This document shows, piece by piece, positions 53,178-63,202 of a stretch of DNA of 64,000 nt. Location of the stretch: contig NZ_JASFYE010000001.1 in assembly GCF_030055425.1 (NCBI RefSeq), forward strand, positions 240,901-304,900. The letters run 5' to 3'. Within the stretch, counting starts at the first letter, position 1, and each line of letters opens with the position of its first letter. Both the position numbers and the translations under genes were made by a program. Origin of the DNA: Methanothermobacter sp. Its GTDB lineage: Archaea > Methanobacteriota > Methanobacteria > Methanobacteriales > Methanothermobacteraceae. The notes under the pieces are model-generated. The model made no database searches, was not told the DNA's origin, and saw only the letters and a list, made by a program, of their open reading frames with translations.

Positions 53178-53669
53178 GAGAAGTGCCTCCTTCAGGTATG
53201 AGGAAAAGGGATAAAATCATAGCCACCAGTAAGAGAGCCGCCCCCAGTCAAGACTGAACCTCAGGGCGGATAGAATGTTCCCGTCTACCTTGTGTATAAT
53301 CTCAGAGCGGTACTCTGCTTCAATTTAGGTTGATGTTAATGTATCACGTGGGGTGTCAAGGTCGGCGCATATCACCACCTCCCTCTCTGAGAGGCCCTCA
53401 ATGGTTCCAATCACGTTCCTGGATGTTTTAACATCATCTGACCTCAGTGAGTAATATTTGAATTCCCTGACCTCTGTTTTAAGTCCATATTTTCTGAACT
53501 GTGCTGCCAGGTAATCTGCAGCCTCTGCCTCTGCATGGGAGCCTGCTGGCCGCGGCCCTATATCCTTGCTCAGGTACCTCACGTGGCCTGTGAGATTAAC
53601 TGCTTCCGCAGCATTCAGCTGGTAGAGGACAAGGAGGAGTACAAAAAGTGAGATTAGTTCCCTTTTCAT
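53170..53669 (-). pseudogene. Decayed M28-family peptidase
   Basis: Starts with a signal peptide (MKRELISLFVLLLVLYQLNA) and the M28 N-terminal block (GPRPAGSHAEAEAADYLAAQFRKYGLKTEV), then RNVIGTIEGLSEREVVICADLD, after which the frame stops. The metal-binding core is missing. Downstream on the same strand the frame NILSALRFSLDWG is recognisable, and one base shifted from it AALLLVAMILSLFLIPEGG, a C-terminal membrane helix. A shortened G-run at TGGGGGCGG explains the shift. The gene has lost its middle and is frameshifted. Confidence 0.75.
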
Positions 53670-53794
53670 CAATGTTTCTATGTTCCCCTGGAACCTTAAA
53701 TTTTATTCAGGAATTTGCAGGATGGGTGCTGAATTGTCAGAAGATGATGAATGGTATTTATAATTTACAGGATAATATCTATTCAGGTGAAATT

Positions 53795-54470: not shown

Positions 54471-57400
54471 TTAGTTTCTTCCAGTTCCAAGGAAGTATCC
54501 GACGCCAACAAGGGCTACCAGCGCTATAACACCGATTATGGCGTAGACTGGCATTCCGGTGCTTGAACTCTGTGATGCAGTTGCCCTGCTCACCTCATAG
54601 GCCTTCCCGGCCTCAGCACCAGGTGACTCCTGGGAGGCACTGGTAACCTCAGAATCCACGCCTGCAGCATCACTGGGCCTTGCATCCGGCCTATCTGATG
54701 ATGGGGTTCGCCCGGCTGAACTTGACCCTGTATCTGGCTCGCCCGGGTTAGGGGTTGAGAGGACATCAGGGTTGGATCCACCTGCTGGGGCGAATGCTGA
54801 GCTCTTTGTGGCCGCATACAGTTTCTCCTTAACCCTTGCAAGGAGGTCAGGGTTGAGGTACTGCATGGCCCACTCCATCATTGCAATGTTGCCGCAGCTG
54901 CAGTCACAGCAGGCAACACCATTTTCTGCGATGGCCTCTGCCCATGTGGTGGCTATCAGGCGCCTTGTGGCATCATCAGCATTCCAGTACCCGCGGTGTA
55001 TTGCGGTGAGCATGGTACCTGTCATGCTTATGAGTGCATAGCTGTTCTTACCCCTTGAAAGCCATTCCCTGACACCAATGCCATATCTGTCCTTGAGGTA
55101 GACATCCACAGTTTCCCTCCACATCCACTCGGAAACCGTCTCAGGACTCATAACATTCCATCCCCAGAGGTTGGCAACGAAGTTGTTTGAGATCTCCCTT
55201 GCGCCTGCATACCCGCTCTGCATCATCGCCTGTATCCATCGGGGGTTGTAGTAGCGGGACTGGAGCTCCCTGTAGAGGAACTGTCCAAGGGTCTCTATTC
55301 TGGAAGCCGATGGGTTCACCTGGTTTATTATGTACATCCCTGGAATCCTGCCGCCTGCAGCCTCCACTGCAAGCCTGAAGCCGCCGAGGAACTCGAAGTT
55401 GTGGTCCACGTCCAGAACTCCATAGAGATTCGTTGACCTTGAGTGGTAGACGCCCTCAACGTCCCGTAGCCTCATTGTCAGGACCTCTTCAAGGTCCACT
55501 CCCCAGCCATCCTCGCTCAGCGCATACTTCATGCTGTCAATGTAGAGCTTTCCAAGGTCCAGCCTTTCATCCCACGTCCAGTCCTGCTGAACAGCCTCAG
55601 GGAGCCTGGTGCCATAGTTACCGAGGGATGGTCCAAATAGCCTGGATATTGCGGCGATTCCAGCGTCCTCAGGTTTCATTCCAAGTTTAATGAGCGCCTT
55701 AACGTCTGAGAGCCAGTGCCTTGCAATGGGGTTCTTATCAAGTGGGTCGCTGCCAGGAATGAAGAGACCTGCTTTCTGGATACTTGAAACTGAGGCGTTG
55801 AGTGCAGAGATGAGTTTCGTCCTGTTATCGTTTGTTTCCTGATTTATAGCTGCCATCAGTGTGTTGAAGGATGCTGCAAGTGCCACCCTTGATGCGCGGT
55901 CCAGGAGCACTCCCAGAAGCGGGAAGGTCTCCCTGAATATCCCGGACGTGGTCATCAGGACATCCACCCTTGACCTGTTGAGCTGTGACAGTGGTGTTGC
56001 CCTCACACCCATGACAGAACCCCCATATCCATAGATAGGTTCGAGTCCCATGAGCCTCAGGATGAATGCCACTGTTGCTCCCTTGTCGTTCTGGGTTTCT
56101 GTGGCCCATATGACAACACCCAGCTGTTCAGGGGTTGCATTGTATGATCTAAGGGCTTCATCTGCAAGTTTTGATCCCCTGATCCATGCAGCCTGTGTTG
56201 GAAGGAGTGATGGGTCCTCACCATACAGGTTCCCCCCTGTTGGGACTGCTGATGGGTTTCTGATCGGGTCTCCCCCTGCTGTGGGTGGTATGTATCCTCC
56301 CCCAAGGGCCCTGAGGAGCATCTGCCTCTCCCTTGCACCTGAACCCCTGATGTTCAGGACATCGTTGAGTGTCAGGTTGAGGGCCGTTATCTCTGTGGCT
56401 GTTAGATTTCTTCCAAGTGCCAGCTGAAGTTCAGATATGACCGCCTGAAGTGATTTTCCGCCGTAGAAATCCTTTATGATCATATCCACTCCCCTGTTCA
56501 CCCCTGAAAGTGCCTGTATCACTGATATGAATGTGCTGTTACCGACGGTTATCCTGGGTACTGTTGCCATGGATCTGACCATTGTGGTAACCTGGCTCTC
56601 ATTCCAGTCCCTGCCAAAGACGTAGAGGCCCAACGGCATCATTGTACCCTCAAGTTCCCTTATGTAGTCGTCTATCCTGTCAACCAGTTCATCGGGGTCC
56701 ATGTTGAGGTCCATTACTGTCTCAAGGTGGAGTTTGGCTGCCCTCTCCCTTATCAGTTTTATCTCCTCTGACCTGTCGCCTGTTGCTGCATGGTACTGGT
56801 CTATCAGGGTTTTGAGTGCCGCGATGTCACCGTAGACTCCCGTTGCCTCCATTGGTGGGGTCAGATGACTTATGCTCACAGCCAGCCCCCTCCTCTTGGC
56901 ATGTATGACCTCACCGACACCATCCATGATGTAGATGTATATGCTTGGCACTTTTCCAAGGCATATGTCAGGGTAGTCTGCCCCTGAGAGGGCTGATTCC
57001 TTTCTGGGGAGCCATTCATAGGTTCCGTGTCTTCCGAGGTGTATCATTGCATCGGCACAGAATTCCATCTGAAGGTATGCATAGAATGCCAGGTACTGGT
57101 GGTGTGGCGGGACTATCTGGCTGTGGTAGAGTTTATCTGCATCGCCCTCCCAGCCGCGCTGTGGCTGTGGAGCCACAAAGACGTTTCCATAGAACATCCC
57201 GGGTATCACCATGTATTTCCTGCCGTTTTTCTCAACGGTCATGATGTTTCCGGGAGGAGCGCCCCATCCACACAGCCCAGGGACCCTGAGTGCCAGGAAC
57301 GCTGACTTTACACTGTAGAACTCGTTCCACCTGTTAATGCCGTTTAGGATGTCCTTAAGGGCGCTGTAAGCCCTTAAAACATGTCTCCTGGCCTCTGATG

Positions 57401-59471
57401 CCCTGCTGATCTGCATGTCATCTATGGTTGAGATCAGTGACTTCTGCCACCTCTCCAGTGTATCCAGTAGTCTGGGGTTGTTAACGCTGTATTTAAAGAG
57501 GGCTTCGATGTACCCGAATGGTCCCTCCTCTATCTCCTTTCTTGCAAGTTCAGGGAGCCTGCTGTACCATTCCATGTACCTCTCCACGTCCCAGAGGATG
57601 GTTGCATTGGCAAGTCTCTCGAGTTCCCCTGGAGCCCAGTTTGCAATGTTGAGGCCACGGTTCATCATCTCTGTTAGGAGTTCATCCACTCCCGCAGGCA
57701 CATTCCTAACAGTGTAACCGTTCTCCCTCAGGAGCCCCAGTATCTCAAGTATTGAGGATGGTCCGTCGAGGTAACTTGCACCTGCAAGGTTCTGTTTCCC
57801 TGGAGGGTAGTTGTAGTAGATGAGCGCAACCCTTTTATCCGCGTTCTGTGTGTACCTGAGTTTAATCCAGGCTGCAATCCTGTCTGCAAAGGTTTCGACC
57901 CTCTCATCTATGGGCTGATAGAATTCAACCTCAAGTCCTGTTAATGGATCCAGTGACTTTCTGGTTGAACTTGTTACCATTGTGAGGATCTGACCCTGGA
58001 ATTCAGGCAGGACTATCTGACTTGTTATGCTGGTGAAGTCCATTCCTGCGTCAGAAATGTACCAGGTTTCCTCGGTGTCAGCCACATTGAGGGGTCTGAA
58101 GACAAGGATGCTGTTATCAAGGACCATTTTCTCGGCAATCGCTGCGGTTGCACCCCCCAGTTTGAATGACTGGAGTGTTATGAGGCCCTGAATTCTTGTC
58201 CTGTTCTGTGAGTCCAGGAAGTAGCTTCTCATGGCATTTATGACCGGTGTTCCGTCAACGGGGTTTCCCTGGGCTATTGTGGCTATAACATTTATACCCC
58301 TTGATTCCATTTCACCTATGAGTCTGTCGAGCATCAGGAGGTCCCCGCGTTCCCATGTGAGGGCCATCCATGATGTTATACCCACCGTTGGTCTTCCTGG
58401 AACCAGGAACTGCTCGTAGTCTGTGAAGTTGTAGTAGAGTCTTCCGTTGCGGTAGAGGGCATACTTTGGCACTATAACTGGTTCGCGGAATGTGTATCCC
58501 CTACCCGGGAATGCCAGGGCTATGAGGTACATGAGGCCCTCCTCCCTGTTTTCTGGGGATGCTGTGTCTGATGTCTTGTATTCCTGGAACTTCAGATAGG
58601 ATGCCATGGCCGGGTAGGCTGCCTGGAGTTCCCTTAGAACCATGATTGGTGTCTTGGGGGGTACAGCCCTTGATACTGACTCGAAAATGGCCTGCAGCTG
58701 GCTGTCAGTGAGTTCAGTACCGTTTGCATCCACGAATCGTGTGTTGTTTATGTTTGTAAGCCTTGCAACCGGGAAGCAGTAGTATGGGTTGGGGTAGGCT
58801 GCTATTATTTTACCGTTGAGTTTTCCCTGGTTCTTCATTGACATGAGGAGGTCAGGGACGGGCCCGTTTGGGCCGTTGACGGTCTGGACGTTGCTGATAT
58901 ATATGAGGTCGGCCCATTCAATTAACTGTGCGGTCTCTGTAAGGTTCAGTTTTGCCTGGTCGGTGTTTCTGACCTTCACTGTGATCTCAGGGTGCTTCTG
59001 CATTATGTTCTTAACCGGTTGAAGGAGCTGCCCAGCCTCTGTTGGCCATGAGATTATCAGGAATCTTATCTCCGGAGGGTCAACCACCCTCACACCGGAG
59101 AGTGCCTCATCCCTATCATCAAAGACACTGTTCCTGTTCAGGTCAGCGTAGAGCCTTCCTGTTATGGTTGAATTGATGAAGGATGCCTCAAGTACTACAT
59201 CTCCGGCCCTCAATGATGCATTTGATGATGGGTGCAGTGTCAGTCTCAGTGTTTCGTTGATTCGATACTTAGCCGGTACTGTCAGTGGGTCCACCCACAC
59301 AACATGGTTATTATCAGTGACACCAGTGAATGTGAATCGCCCCTCACTGTCTGTGAGGTTCTCTGGATTTTTAATTTCACCTCCATCAATTTCTGCCGCT
59401 ACAGCTGATCCCTGTAGAATCACTGTAAAAAAAGCTGCAATCAATAGAATAATCAACTGTTTTCTAATCAT
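54471..59471 (-). CDS. Exported, membrane-anchored CobN/BchH-like protein
   Basis: 1,666 residues. A signal peptide (KQLIILLIAAFFTVILQGSA) is followed by an SdrD B-like calcium/adhesin module (ITGRLYADLNRNSVFDDRDEALSGVRV, about 105-130), then the full CobN-type chelatase fold (residues 140-1530) with HLGRHGTYEWLPRKE near 815, and a cysteine cluster GVACCDCSCGN near 1530. The end is a Ser/Pro/Asp-rich linker and a transmembrane helix (YAIIGVIALVALVGVGYFLG) with a short basic tail. CobN inserts cobalt with ATPase partners in the cytoplasm; here it faces outside. ATG 59471 follows GGAGGTGAAA. Confidence 0.88.
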   Translation of the reverse strand: MIRKQLIILLIAAFFTVILQGSAVAAEIDGGEIKNPENLTDSEGRFTFTGVTDNNHVVWVDPLTVPAKYRINETLRLTLHPSSNASLRAGDVVLEASFINSTITGRLYADLNRNSVFDDRDEALSGVRVVDPPEIRFLIISWPTEAGQLLQPVKNIMQKHPEITVKVRNTDQAKLNLTETAQLIEWADLIYISNVQTVNGPNGPVPDLLMSMKNQGKLNGKIIAAYPNPYYCFPVARLTNINNTRFVDANGTELTDSQLQAIFESVSRAVPPKTPIMVLRELQAAYPAMASYLKFQEYKTSDTASPENREEGLMYLIALAFPGRGYTFREPVIVPKYALYRNGRLYYNFTDYEQFLVPGRPTVGITSWMALTWERGDLLMLDRLIGEMESRGINVIATIAQGNPVDGTPVINAMRSYFLDSQNRTRIQGLITLQSFKLGGATAAIAEKMVLDNSILVFRPLNVADTEETWYISDAGMDFTSITSQIVLPEFQGQILTMVTSSTRKSLDPLTGLEVEFYQPIDERVETFADRIAAWIKLRYTQNADKRVALIYYNYPPGKQNLAGASYLDGPSSILEILGLLRENGYTVRNVPAGVDELLTEMMNRGLNIANWAPGELERLANATILWDVERYMEWYSRLPELARKEIEEGPFGYIEALFKYSVNNPRLLDTLERWQKSLISTIDDMQISRASEARRHVLRAYSALKDILNGINRWNEFYSVKSAFLALRVPGLCGWGAPPGNIMTVEKNGRKYMVIPGMFYGNVFVAPQPQRGWEGDADKLYHSQIVPPHHQYLAFYAYLQMEFCADAMIHLGRHGTYEWLPRKESALSGADYPDICLGKVPSIYIYIMDGVGEVIHAKRRGLAVSISHLTPPMEATGVYGDIAALKTLIDQYHAATGDRSEEIKLIRERAAKLHLETVMDLNMDPDELVDRIDDYIRELEGTMMPLGLYVFGRDWNESQVTTMVRSMATVPRITVGNSTFISVIQALSGVNRGVDMIIKDFYGGKSLQAVISELQLALGRNLTATEITALNLTLNDVLNIRGSGARERQMLLRALGGGYIPPTAGGDPIRNPSAVPTGGNLYGEDPSLLPTQAAWIRGSKLADEALRSYNATPEQLGVVIWATETQNDKGATVAFILRLMGLEPIYGYGGSVMGVRATPLSQLNRSRVDVLMTTSGIFRETFPLLGVLLDRASRVALAASFNTLMAAINQETNDNRTKLISALNASVSSIQKAGLFIPGSDPLDKNPIARHWLSDVKALIKLGMKPEDAGIAAISRLFGPSLGNYGTRLPEAVQQDWTWDERLDLGKLYIDSMKYALSEDGWGVDLEEVLTMRLRDVEGVYHSRSTNLYGVLDVDHNFEFLGGFRLAVEAAGGRIPGMYIINQVNPSASRIETLGQFLYRELQSRYYNPRWIQAMMQSGYAGAREISNNFVANLWGWNVMSPETVSEWMWRETVDVYLKDRYGIGVREWLSRGKNSYALISMTGTMLTAIHRGYWNADDATRRLIATTWAEAIAENGVACCDCSCGNIAMMEWAMQYLNPDLLARVKEKLYAATKSSAFAPAGGSNPDVLSTPNPGEPDTGSSSAGRTPSSDRPDARPSDAAGVDSEVTSASQESPGAEAGKAYEVSRATASQSSSTGMPVYAIIGVIALVALVGVGYFLGTGRN

Positions 59472-59978
59472 TTTCACCTCCTTTATTCTTTACAATCAGA
59501 GATCTTTCAGAAATTTTATTTAAGAGTTTTTATTAATTTTTTATTACTATTTTTGAATTGAATCAAATTAATGTAATAATTCAATGGAAAATTAATACAT
59601 ATGATGTGGAAATTTATATGATTTTATAATATTAAATATAATAAAAATATTAATTGAAAATTCAAATAGAAATTAAAAGGATTTTTATTAACATTAAAGC
59701 CTCTTTTGAAGTTTAATATAAGAATAAAAGCAATAAAATCAGTTATTTTTCATATATGAATCATTTACGTTCCCTTTAACTCAAATCTGTGTAATATTAA
59801 ATTTTAATATGGTGTTAATAGTGCTGGTCCAGATCCCTCAGCTCATCTTCCAATCCTGCAAAACTTTATATGCTGCAAAAAGAACTATGTAATATATTAC
59901 CTTAATATGTAATATATTACCATATGAAGTCAGAGGAAACACCACTGAAACCTGTGGTATTAAGAGTGAGGTTCCTTG
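59472..59978. other. AT-rich divergent intergenic region
   Basis: About 500 bases, among the most AT-rich of the window, with many A/T runs (59520-59720) and several TATA-like elements for the CobN-like gene. Toward the MarR gene there are the TATA at 59863-59873 and two palindromes at 59889-59920. An ATG frame of 27 codons (59924) overlaps the marR start but lacks a ribosome site. No RNA gene or origin was recognised. Confidence 0.55.
59863..59921 (+). promoter_or_regulatory. MarR promoter with two GTAATATATTAC palindromes
   Basis: ACTTTATATGC (59863-59873) is a TATA box. The perfect 12-bp palindrome GTAATATATTAC occurs at 59889-59900 and 59909-59920, inside a 16-base direct repeat TATGTAATATATTACC with a 20-base period, covering the expected start site near 59893. 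Two helical turns apart on the same face, they make a strong candidate for cooperative autorepression by the MarR protein. Confidence 0.8.
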
Positions 59979-62794: not shown

Positions 62795-63190
62795 TCAGGG
62801 TATGGGTATCCCGTGGGGGCACCTTGAGGGGTTCCTGAGGTACCTCCTGAGTGCATCCTCTGTCTCTGTGAAGAGTTCATGCTTCATCCGGGAGGCCTCC
62901 TCATAGGATGAGTCTATGTCCATCCCCAGGACCTCATGGAAGAAGCACTCCAGGAGCATATGTTTTCTGAGGACCTCCTCTGCAAGTTCCCTGCCAGTAT
63001 CTGTGAGTTCAGCCCCGAGGTATGGGTGGTAGACCACAAGTCCCATTTCATGGAGTTTCCTGAGCATCTGGGTCACACTGGCCGGTTTAACCTTGAGGCG
63101 TGCCGATAGATCCGATGTTCTCACAGTACCCCTTTTCCGTATCCTGTATATTGTCTCAAGGTAATTTTCCATGCTCCTTGTAAGTTCCAT
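62795..63190 (-). CDS. DtxR/MntR-family metal-dependent regulator
   Basis: 131 residues. An N-terminal winged helix (ENYLETIYRIRKRGTVRTSDLSARLKVKPASVTQMLRKL) is followed by the dimerisation/metal domain (GRELAEEVLRKHMLLECFFHEVLGM, EEASRMKHEL), including cysteine and histidine residues expected at the Fe/Mn site. No C-terminal SH3 domain, as in MntR. The ATG at 63190 follows GGTGTCTCTT; a TTG 12 bases earlier is rejected. The palindrome directly before it suggests autoregulation. Confidence 0.92.
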   Translation of the reverse strand: MELTRSMENYLETIYRIRKRGTVRTSDLSARLKVKPASVTQMLRKLHEMGLVVYHPYLGAELTDTGRELAEEVLRKHMLLECFFHEVLGMDIDSSYEEASRMKHELFTETEDALRRYLRNPSRCPHGIPIP

Positions 63191-63202
63191 AAGAGACACC
63201 AA

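Follow-up and report, generated by a model that had tools for sequence, protein, structure and literature searches.

The stretch of Methanothermobacter DNA analyzed here, 64,000 nucleotides in length and hereafter called the window, contains a gene for a CobN-like protein (the window protein) that most likely demetallates or captures tetrapyrroles of the Fe/Ni type outside the membrane for metal uptake. The reading that best joins the evidence, which we hold to be rather probable, is that of a surface protein of the HmuS/BtuS branch, in which metal would be removed at a bis-His site and the ion then imported, with no ChlI/D ATPase taking part. A preliminary description of the DNA, made from the letters alone, had suggested a tetrapyrrole- or metal-scavenging role, which would fit this evidence; it had overlooked the known extracytoplasmic branch (BtuS/HmuS) and the nine exported copies in the genome.

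The gene is a single open frame with a GTG start (Table 1). Six of the 8 genomes available for the genus carry an ortholog, with 82 to 98% identity and no internal stop, so that the frame is not a product of chance. The Pfam profile PF02514 matches the protein with 908 bits in two stretches, and this full-body match, together with the fold, places it in the class I chelatase superfamily. The layout consists of a hydrophobic N terminus ending in QGSAVAA, the full PF02514 body, a Ser/Pro-rich stalk, a GKAYEV motif, a transmembrane (TM) helix, and a short tail, and agrees with the exported and anchored CobN-like protein of the preliminary description. Both the N-terminal signal and the C-terminal anchor, the marks of export in the HmuS/BtuS branch, are predicted by hydropathy and sequence. 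The proposed SdrD_B-like adhesin module fared less well; the segment taken alone (residues about 40 to 71) gives a half-domain match below threshold (E value, 0.0089; 16.7 bits against a Pfam cutoff of 29.7), a Pfam scan of the whole protein contains no SdrD_B match, and AlphaFold pLDDT is <50 across residues 28 to 131.

Next to the gene, at window positions 59478 to 59960, is an AT-rich gap of some 480 bases that contains a perfect inverted repeat of 11 bases. In relatives, a gene of the endonuclease/exonuclease/phosphatase family lies upstream of the ortholog (L082:12661-13362, L078, L080, and L081), at the place of this gap. A short ORF at window positions 53325 to 53672 (-), with a signal peptide, resembles the start of an M28-type peptidase and appears truncated; its relative in L082 has 222 aa.

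Table 1. Features of the window protein gene and a nearby regulator gene (window coordinates)
Feature	Coordinates	Strand	Basis
Exported, membrane-anchored CobN/HmuS-like chelatase-superfamily protein, 1668 aa (predicted)	54471..59477	-	ORF; PF02514; HmuS best PDB match by sequence and fold
Predicted signal peptide, residues 1-28	59394..59477	-	Sequence and hydropathy of window protein and paralogs; putative cleavage near AVAA/EIDG
Degenerate SdrD_B-like halves, residues 46-73 and 105-131	59085..59342	-	Weak Pfam match; second half by eye; low-confidence model
Head and neck domains, about residues 133-640	57558..59081	-	AlphaFold pLDDT about 90 over most; Foldseek to 7c6o, 4zhj, 9d26
Catalytic motif 1 HLGRHGTYEW; His817 = HmuS His538; Glu821 = ChlH E625 position	57012..57047	-	
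GVGE motif; Glu856 = HmuS Glu577/ChlH E660	56889..56927	-	
Metal-site motif 2 DVDHNFEFLGG; Asp1358, His1359, Glu1362 = HmuS Asp1208, His1209, Glu1212	55380..55421	-	
GVACCDCSC cysteine motif	54870..54923	-	
Ser/Ala/Pro/Gly-rich stalk, about residues 1561-1623	54609..54797	-	
Juxtamembrane GKAYEV motif of family-specific C-terminal anchor	54579..54608	-	
C-terminal TM helix, residues 1642-1662, then short cytoplasmic tail	54492..54554	-	
DtxR-type iron-dependent repressor	62795..63202	-	Pfam PF01325 and PF02742

By sequence, the best PDB match of the window protein is HmuS (9d26; E value, 7.8e-109). A structure model of residues 373 to 1571 (43 sequences; pLDDT, 90.2; pTM, 0.92) has the chelatase fold, and HmuS ranks first in the Foldseek search (9d26; E value, 2e-62; TM score, 0.76; 23% identity), with CobN (7c6o) and ChlH (4zhj) after it, and the head and neck domains match the same families (7c6o, 4zhj, and 9d26). 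In the phylogenetic tree, the ATP-dependent subunits (CobN, BchH, and the archaeal cytoplasmic form) lie on one side with 97/91 support, and all the exported archaeal forms, HmuS, and the CobN of a Trichlorobacter lovleyi uptake cluster lie on the other. Moving HmuS to the cytoplasmic side is disfavored, although not firmly rejected (AU test, P = 0.056). In addition, a cysteine motif follows the body in 92 of 107 exported forms and in 0 of 8 ATP-dependent cytoplasmic ones, and HmuS has C-x4-C at the same place. Taken together, the sequences support membership of the window protein in the extracytoplasmic HmuS/BtuS branch, with tree support that is not decisive, rather than a stray export of a cytoplasmic CobN.

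The superfamily His of the HxGxHG motif and the Glu of the GE motif are retained in the window protein as His817 and Glu856, and the HmuS counterpart of the former, His538, is essential for turnover in HmuS (PMC12583661). The first motif (MIHLGRHGTYEWLPRKE) is of the HGTYEWLPxK type, as previously noted, whereas the Arg in place of Gly singled out there is no peculiarity, since PRK is also found in HmuS and several exported paralogs. At the second ligand position, DVDHNFEF of the window protein (His1359) matches LDHxxEF of HmuS (His1209), whereas Asp occupies this position in bacterial CobN and in nearly all of the remaining exported relatives. The tree places the origin of this His inside an Asp-bearing exported clade, with three changes needed in all to explain the labels; the small clade of the window protein has regained the second metal-ligand His. 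The idea that the bis-His pair marks HmuS alone was rejected, as BchH and the cytoplasmic chelatase of archaea carry the pair as well, and the second His thus has no specificity for heme. The accessory site-1 heme ligand of HmuS, His254, is Ser in the window protein, and the HmuS pocket residues Ser1014, Gln1198, Ser1199, and Trp1202 are replaced by Ala, Ser, Thr, and Tyr, respectively, with Ser1067 retained. Judging from these residues, the window protein probably works like HmuS at the central site, yet it is not an HmuS in the strict sense because His254 and four pocket residues differ.

The genome contains ten PF02514 loci, nine exported and one cytoplasmic. A C-terminal TM helix is predicted by hydropathy in all nine exported copies, as is an N-terminal hydrophobic segment in those with an unambiguous start. 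The exported copies carry N-glycosylation sequons at about four times the density (0.9 to 1.75 per 100 aa) of the cytoplasmic homolog (0.25 to 0.34), which fits export. The window protein is one of the best preserved of the nine. Three of them (L012, L010, and L016) have lost a catalytic ligand, and part of the family may therefore only bind. In L012:4978-9651 and L016:4974-8918, GTMGS replaces GxHG and the second motif is gone, and the products are perhaps binding-only receptors. L010:4638-8422 (-) is split into two ORFs with a 4-base overlap and lacks the catalytic His; a similar split copy seems to be present in another genome (L038 of G005), and this type may represent a conserved split, noncatalytic form.

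Such copies, which make it probable that binding-only members exist, bear on the alternative that survives best, in which the window protein would be a hemophore-like surface receptor that captures a tetrapyrrole without changing its metal and hands the cargo to FmdE proteins or to an importer, for instance the ECF transporter whose genes accompany those of the cytoplasmic CobN and its ATPase. The HmuS of Porphyromonas gingivalis has likewise been proposed to be a heme chaperone (PMC13227078). However, the ligands of the window protein are all retained across the orthologs compared, and its clade gained the second His, so that pure capture seems unlikely to us.

No cognate ChlI/D or CobS/T ATPase gene lies near the window gene, in line with the preliminary description, which had found no ATPase partner nearby. 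A Mg_chelatase match inside the window (C1:274104) was considered as a partner and rejected, as its sequence looks like a Lon-type AAA protein and not a chelatase subunit. The genome-wide search for ChlI/ChlD-like genes called for there returned two ChlI/D-type ATPases. One is encoded in an operon with the sole cytoplasmic CobN/ChlH homolog, which has neither a signal nor a TM helix, and the other is located elsewhere, on contig 5; the cell thus has the parts of an ATP-dependent chelatase, but they go together with the cytoplasmic copy. The operon, on contig 8 (L009:453-8462), also encodes a complete ECF transporter (MptD-like S component, CbiQ-like T component, and double ATPase) and is a candidate tetrapyrrole import-and-metallation unit.

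The partners of the exported copies are likely to be DUF2162/ExbB/DUF2149 and FeoB rather than AAA+ ATPases. At the paralog locus L013, genes for an FmdE-like surface protein, an exported CobN-like protein, DUF2162, MotA/TolQ/ExbB, and DUF2149 follow one another in an order conserved in the genus, and this is the order of bacterial hmuSTUV, annotated in Porphyromonas and Prevotella as CobN, hypothetical protein, ExbB, and DUF2149 (PMC10434189). Among exported-relative loci that span 9 kb or more, DUF2162/ExbB/DUF2149 genes are nearby in 37 of 38 from Methanobacteriales and 21 of 28 from bacteria, and a ChlI/D ATPase gene in 0 of 66. DUF2162 occurs in 129 of 152 genomes of the phylum; in the genome studied here, it occurs once, in the single DUF2162/ExbB/DUF2149 set beside the L013 paralog. 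The neighbors of the window gene include neither this operon nor a transporter. FeoB directly follows the exported paralog L015 in all 8 genomes of the genus, CbiM adjoins an exported-chelatase cluster in another genus, and a plasmid stretch of T. lovleyi carries genes for a TonB receptor, DUF2162, ExbB, DUF2149, and CobN among cobalamin and CbiMNQO genes.

These surroundings also bear on the idea of a salvage chelatase at the cell exterior, which would load metal-free tetrapyrroles of foreign origin with Ni, Co, or Fe, with either the ExbB-type proton channel or simply an excess of metal as the driving force. The active site is shared with ChlH and CobN, which insert metal, the reaction can in principle run both ways, and CbiM lies beside related clusters, but the known inserting members use the very ATPases missing near the exported copies, and the pairing with FeoB suggests metal release for uptake; insertion is accordingly given a low probability.

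A DtxR-type regulator gene lies between the window gene and the next paralog (L014) and stays nearby in the other genomes of the genus examined; it may have a regulatory role. Elsewhere, the motif AAGTA[AT]TA, or its reverse, occurs at 17 sites in 13 upstream regions, against 1 site in the whole 64-kb window, and is found upstream of L009:453, L013:4846 and 9980, L168:2981, L169:4035, L014:9414, L012:4978, and L016:4974. In another family of the order, it is about 3-fold enriched (51 sites in 43 targets versus 59 in 169 controls). It may be an operator that links the surface chelatases and FmdE proteins to the cytoplasmic ChlID-ECF-CobN operon. The motif was spotted post hoc, is absent from the 300 bp upstream of the window gene, and is no evidence for that gene.

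When the last 45 residues of the window protein were used as a query against its own genome, 12 matches were obtained, namely, the nine exported CobN-like proteins and three FmdE-like surface proteins, and nothing else. Bacterial exported homologs have a similar element, EGY(K/E)ME (EGYKMEE), followed by a TM helix; a strict regular expression for the anchor captures 66 of 114 sequences, many of the others being variants such as KSIEINP and EGYRMEE. An anchor so specific to the family suggests a common docking partner. The three FmdE-type surface proteins (L013:9980-12898, L168:2981-5800, and L169:4035-6752) have FHGHxC/FHNHxC motifs, and a PDB search with an FmdE-like surface protein returned no match; one of their genes is accompanied, in divergent orientation, by a gene for a small FmdE-like protein of the cytoplasmic type. 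A bolder extension, which we consider doubtful, would have one DUF2162-ExbB-DUF2149 proton channel serve all nine chelatase-like and three FmdE-type proteins through the juxtamembrane Y-E-V/TM anchor in an ATP-free extraction driven by the proton motive force, with the substrate range spread over the paralogs: corrinoids and cobalt for the Asp type, and Fe/Ni tetrapyrroles, possibly F430, for the His type, including the window protein. That the window protein serves as a wall adhesin, as the preliminary description had offered, or as a structural protein of the surface, with a chelatase fold only by chance, is very improbable, since its weak SdrD_B-like half-domain, glycosylatable Ser-rich stalk, and many surface paralogs are outweighed by strictly kept catalytic residues, an anchor absent from general adhesins, and the association of its kin with metal transport.

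For the demetallation reading, the following course can be proposed. The window protein would be anchored at the outside of the cell membrane in the Methanothermobacter-like archaeon, where its central cleft would bind a metallo-tetrapyrrole released by other organisms, presumably an Fe or Ni tetrapyrrole rather than a corrinoid. The bis-His site (His817/His1359), assisted by Asp1358, Glu856, and Glu1362, would remove the metal, and the freed ion would be imported by transporters such as FeoB, or a CbiM-type transporter for Co/Ni. Energy or substrate handling might come from the ExbB/DUF2149 (ExbB/ExbD-like) proton-channel pair and DUF2162 instead of ATP. HmuS removes Fe from heme (PMC12583661), BtuS1/2 are associated with FeoAB in Bacteroides fragilis (PMC6460266), and BtuS levels in Methanosarcina barkeri shift with the Fe/S source (PMC10846266). 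Since Methanobacteriales reportedly have neither heme proteins nor Tat export (PMC3087415), tetrapyrroles would be a source of metal and not a supply of cofactor. Loss of BtuS1/2 in B. fragilis did not abolish PPIX formation, which counts against a de-chelatase (PMC6460266), and the missing His254, the different pocket, a window gene without a partner operon or transporter neighbor, the reported lack of heme proteins in the order, the loss of a catalytic ligand in some paralogs, and the infirm placement of HmuS in the tree also weigh against this reading.

Extracytoplasmic CobN relatives are already known, and heme de-chelation by BtuS/HmuS is proven in Bacteroides. BtuS was distinguished as a third, exported type of CobN relative and proposed for metalloporphyrin salvage (Rodionov 2003, as cited in PMC6460266). 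The 2025 HmuS study offered no explanation for the many "CobN" proteins found in methanogens and described complete hmu operons as missing from Archaea (PMC12583661); contrary to that statement, a set equivalent to S-T-U-V is widespread in Methanobacteriales and tied to iron and cobalt transporters. As far as the literature consulted shows, this set in methanogens, the presence of nine exported paralogs in a single small genome, the replacement of Asp by His in the clade of the window protein, the FmdE partners, and the shared anchor are new. If the proposed role is true, hydrogenotrophic methanogens, whose demand for Fe, Ni, and Co is high, obtain metals by mining the tetrapyrroles of neighboring organisms. 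How chelatases outside the cytoplasm are powered could then be tested in a single organism that has one motor for nine clients.

Among known systems, the CobN cobaltochelatase and ChlH (BchH) share the PF02514 fold and the HG..E and GE motifs with the window protein, but they are cytoplasmic and ATP dependent, working with ChlI/D or CobST, and have no signal peptide, stalk, TM helix, or cysteine motif. The exported CobN of T. lovleyi plasmid pGLOV01, the closest plasmid match by tblastn, has the same partner genes and a similar anchor (GFEMKET, then TM) but differs in its Gram-negative periplasm, corrinoid/cobalt setting, and Asp-Asp second motif. The BtuS family, linked to iron supply, is likewise an exported CobN relative; it was reported without an operon in M. 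barkeri, whereas Methanobacteriales have the DUF2162-ExbB-DUF2149 set, and the clade of the window protein differs by the Asp-to-His change. In contrast to HmuS of Bacteroides thetaiotaomicron (PDB 9d26 and 9p4s), the window protein would reside on an archaeal surface without an outer membrane, TonB receptor, or HmuY, and it has a weakly supported SdrD_B-like N terminus, a Ser-rich stalk, and a nine-member family. Both proteins are exported, membrane-anchored forms of the six-domain class I chelatase fold, as predicted for the window protein, and they share the bis-His and carboxylate site, PRK in motif 1, the C-terminal cysteine motif, and family partners that are alike, namely, DUF2149, ExbB, and a multi-TM protein.
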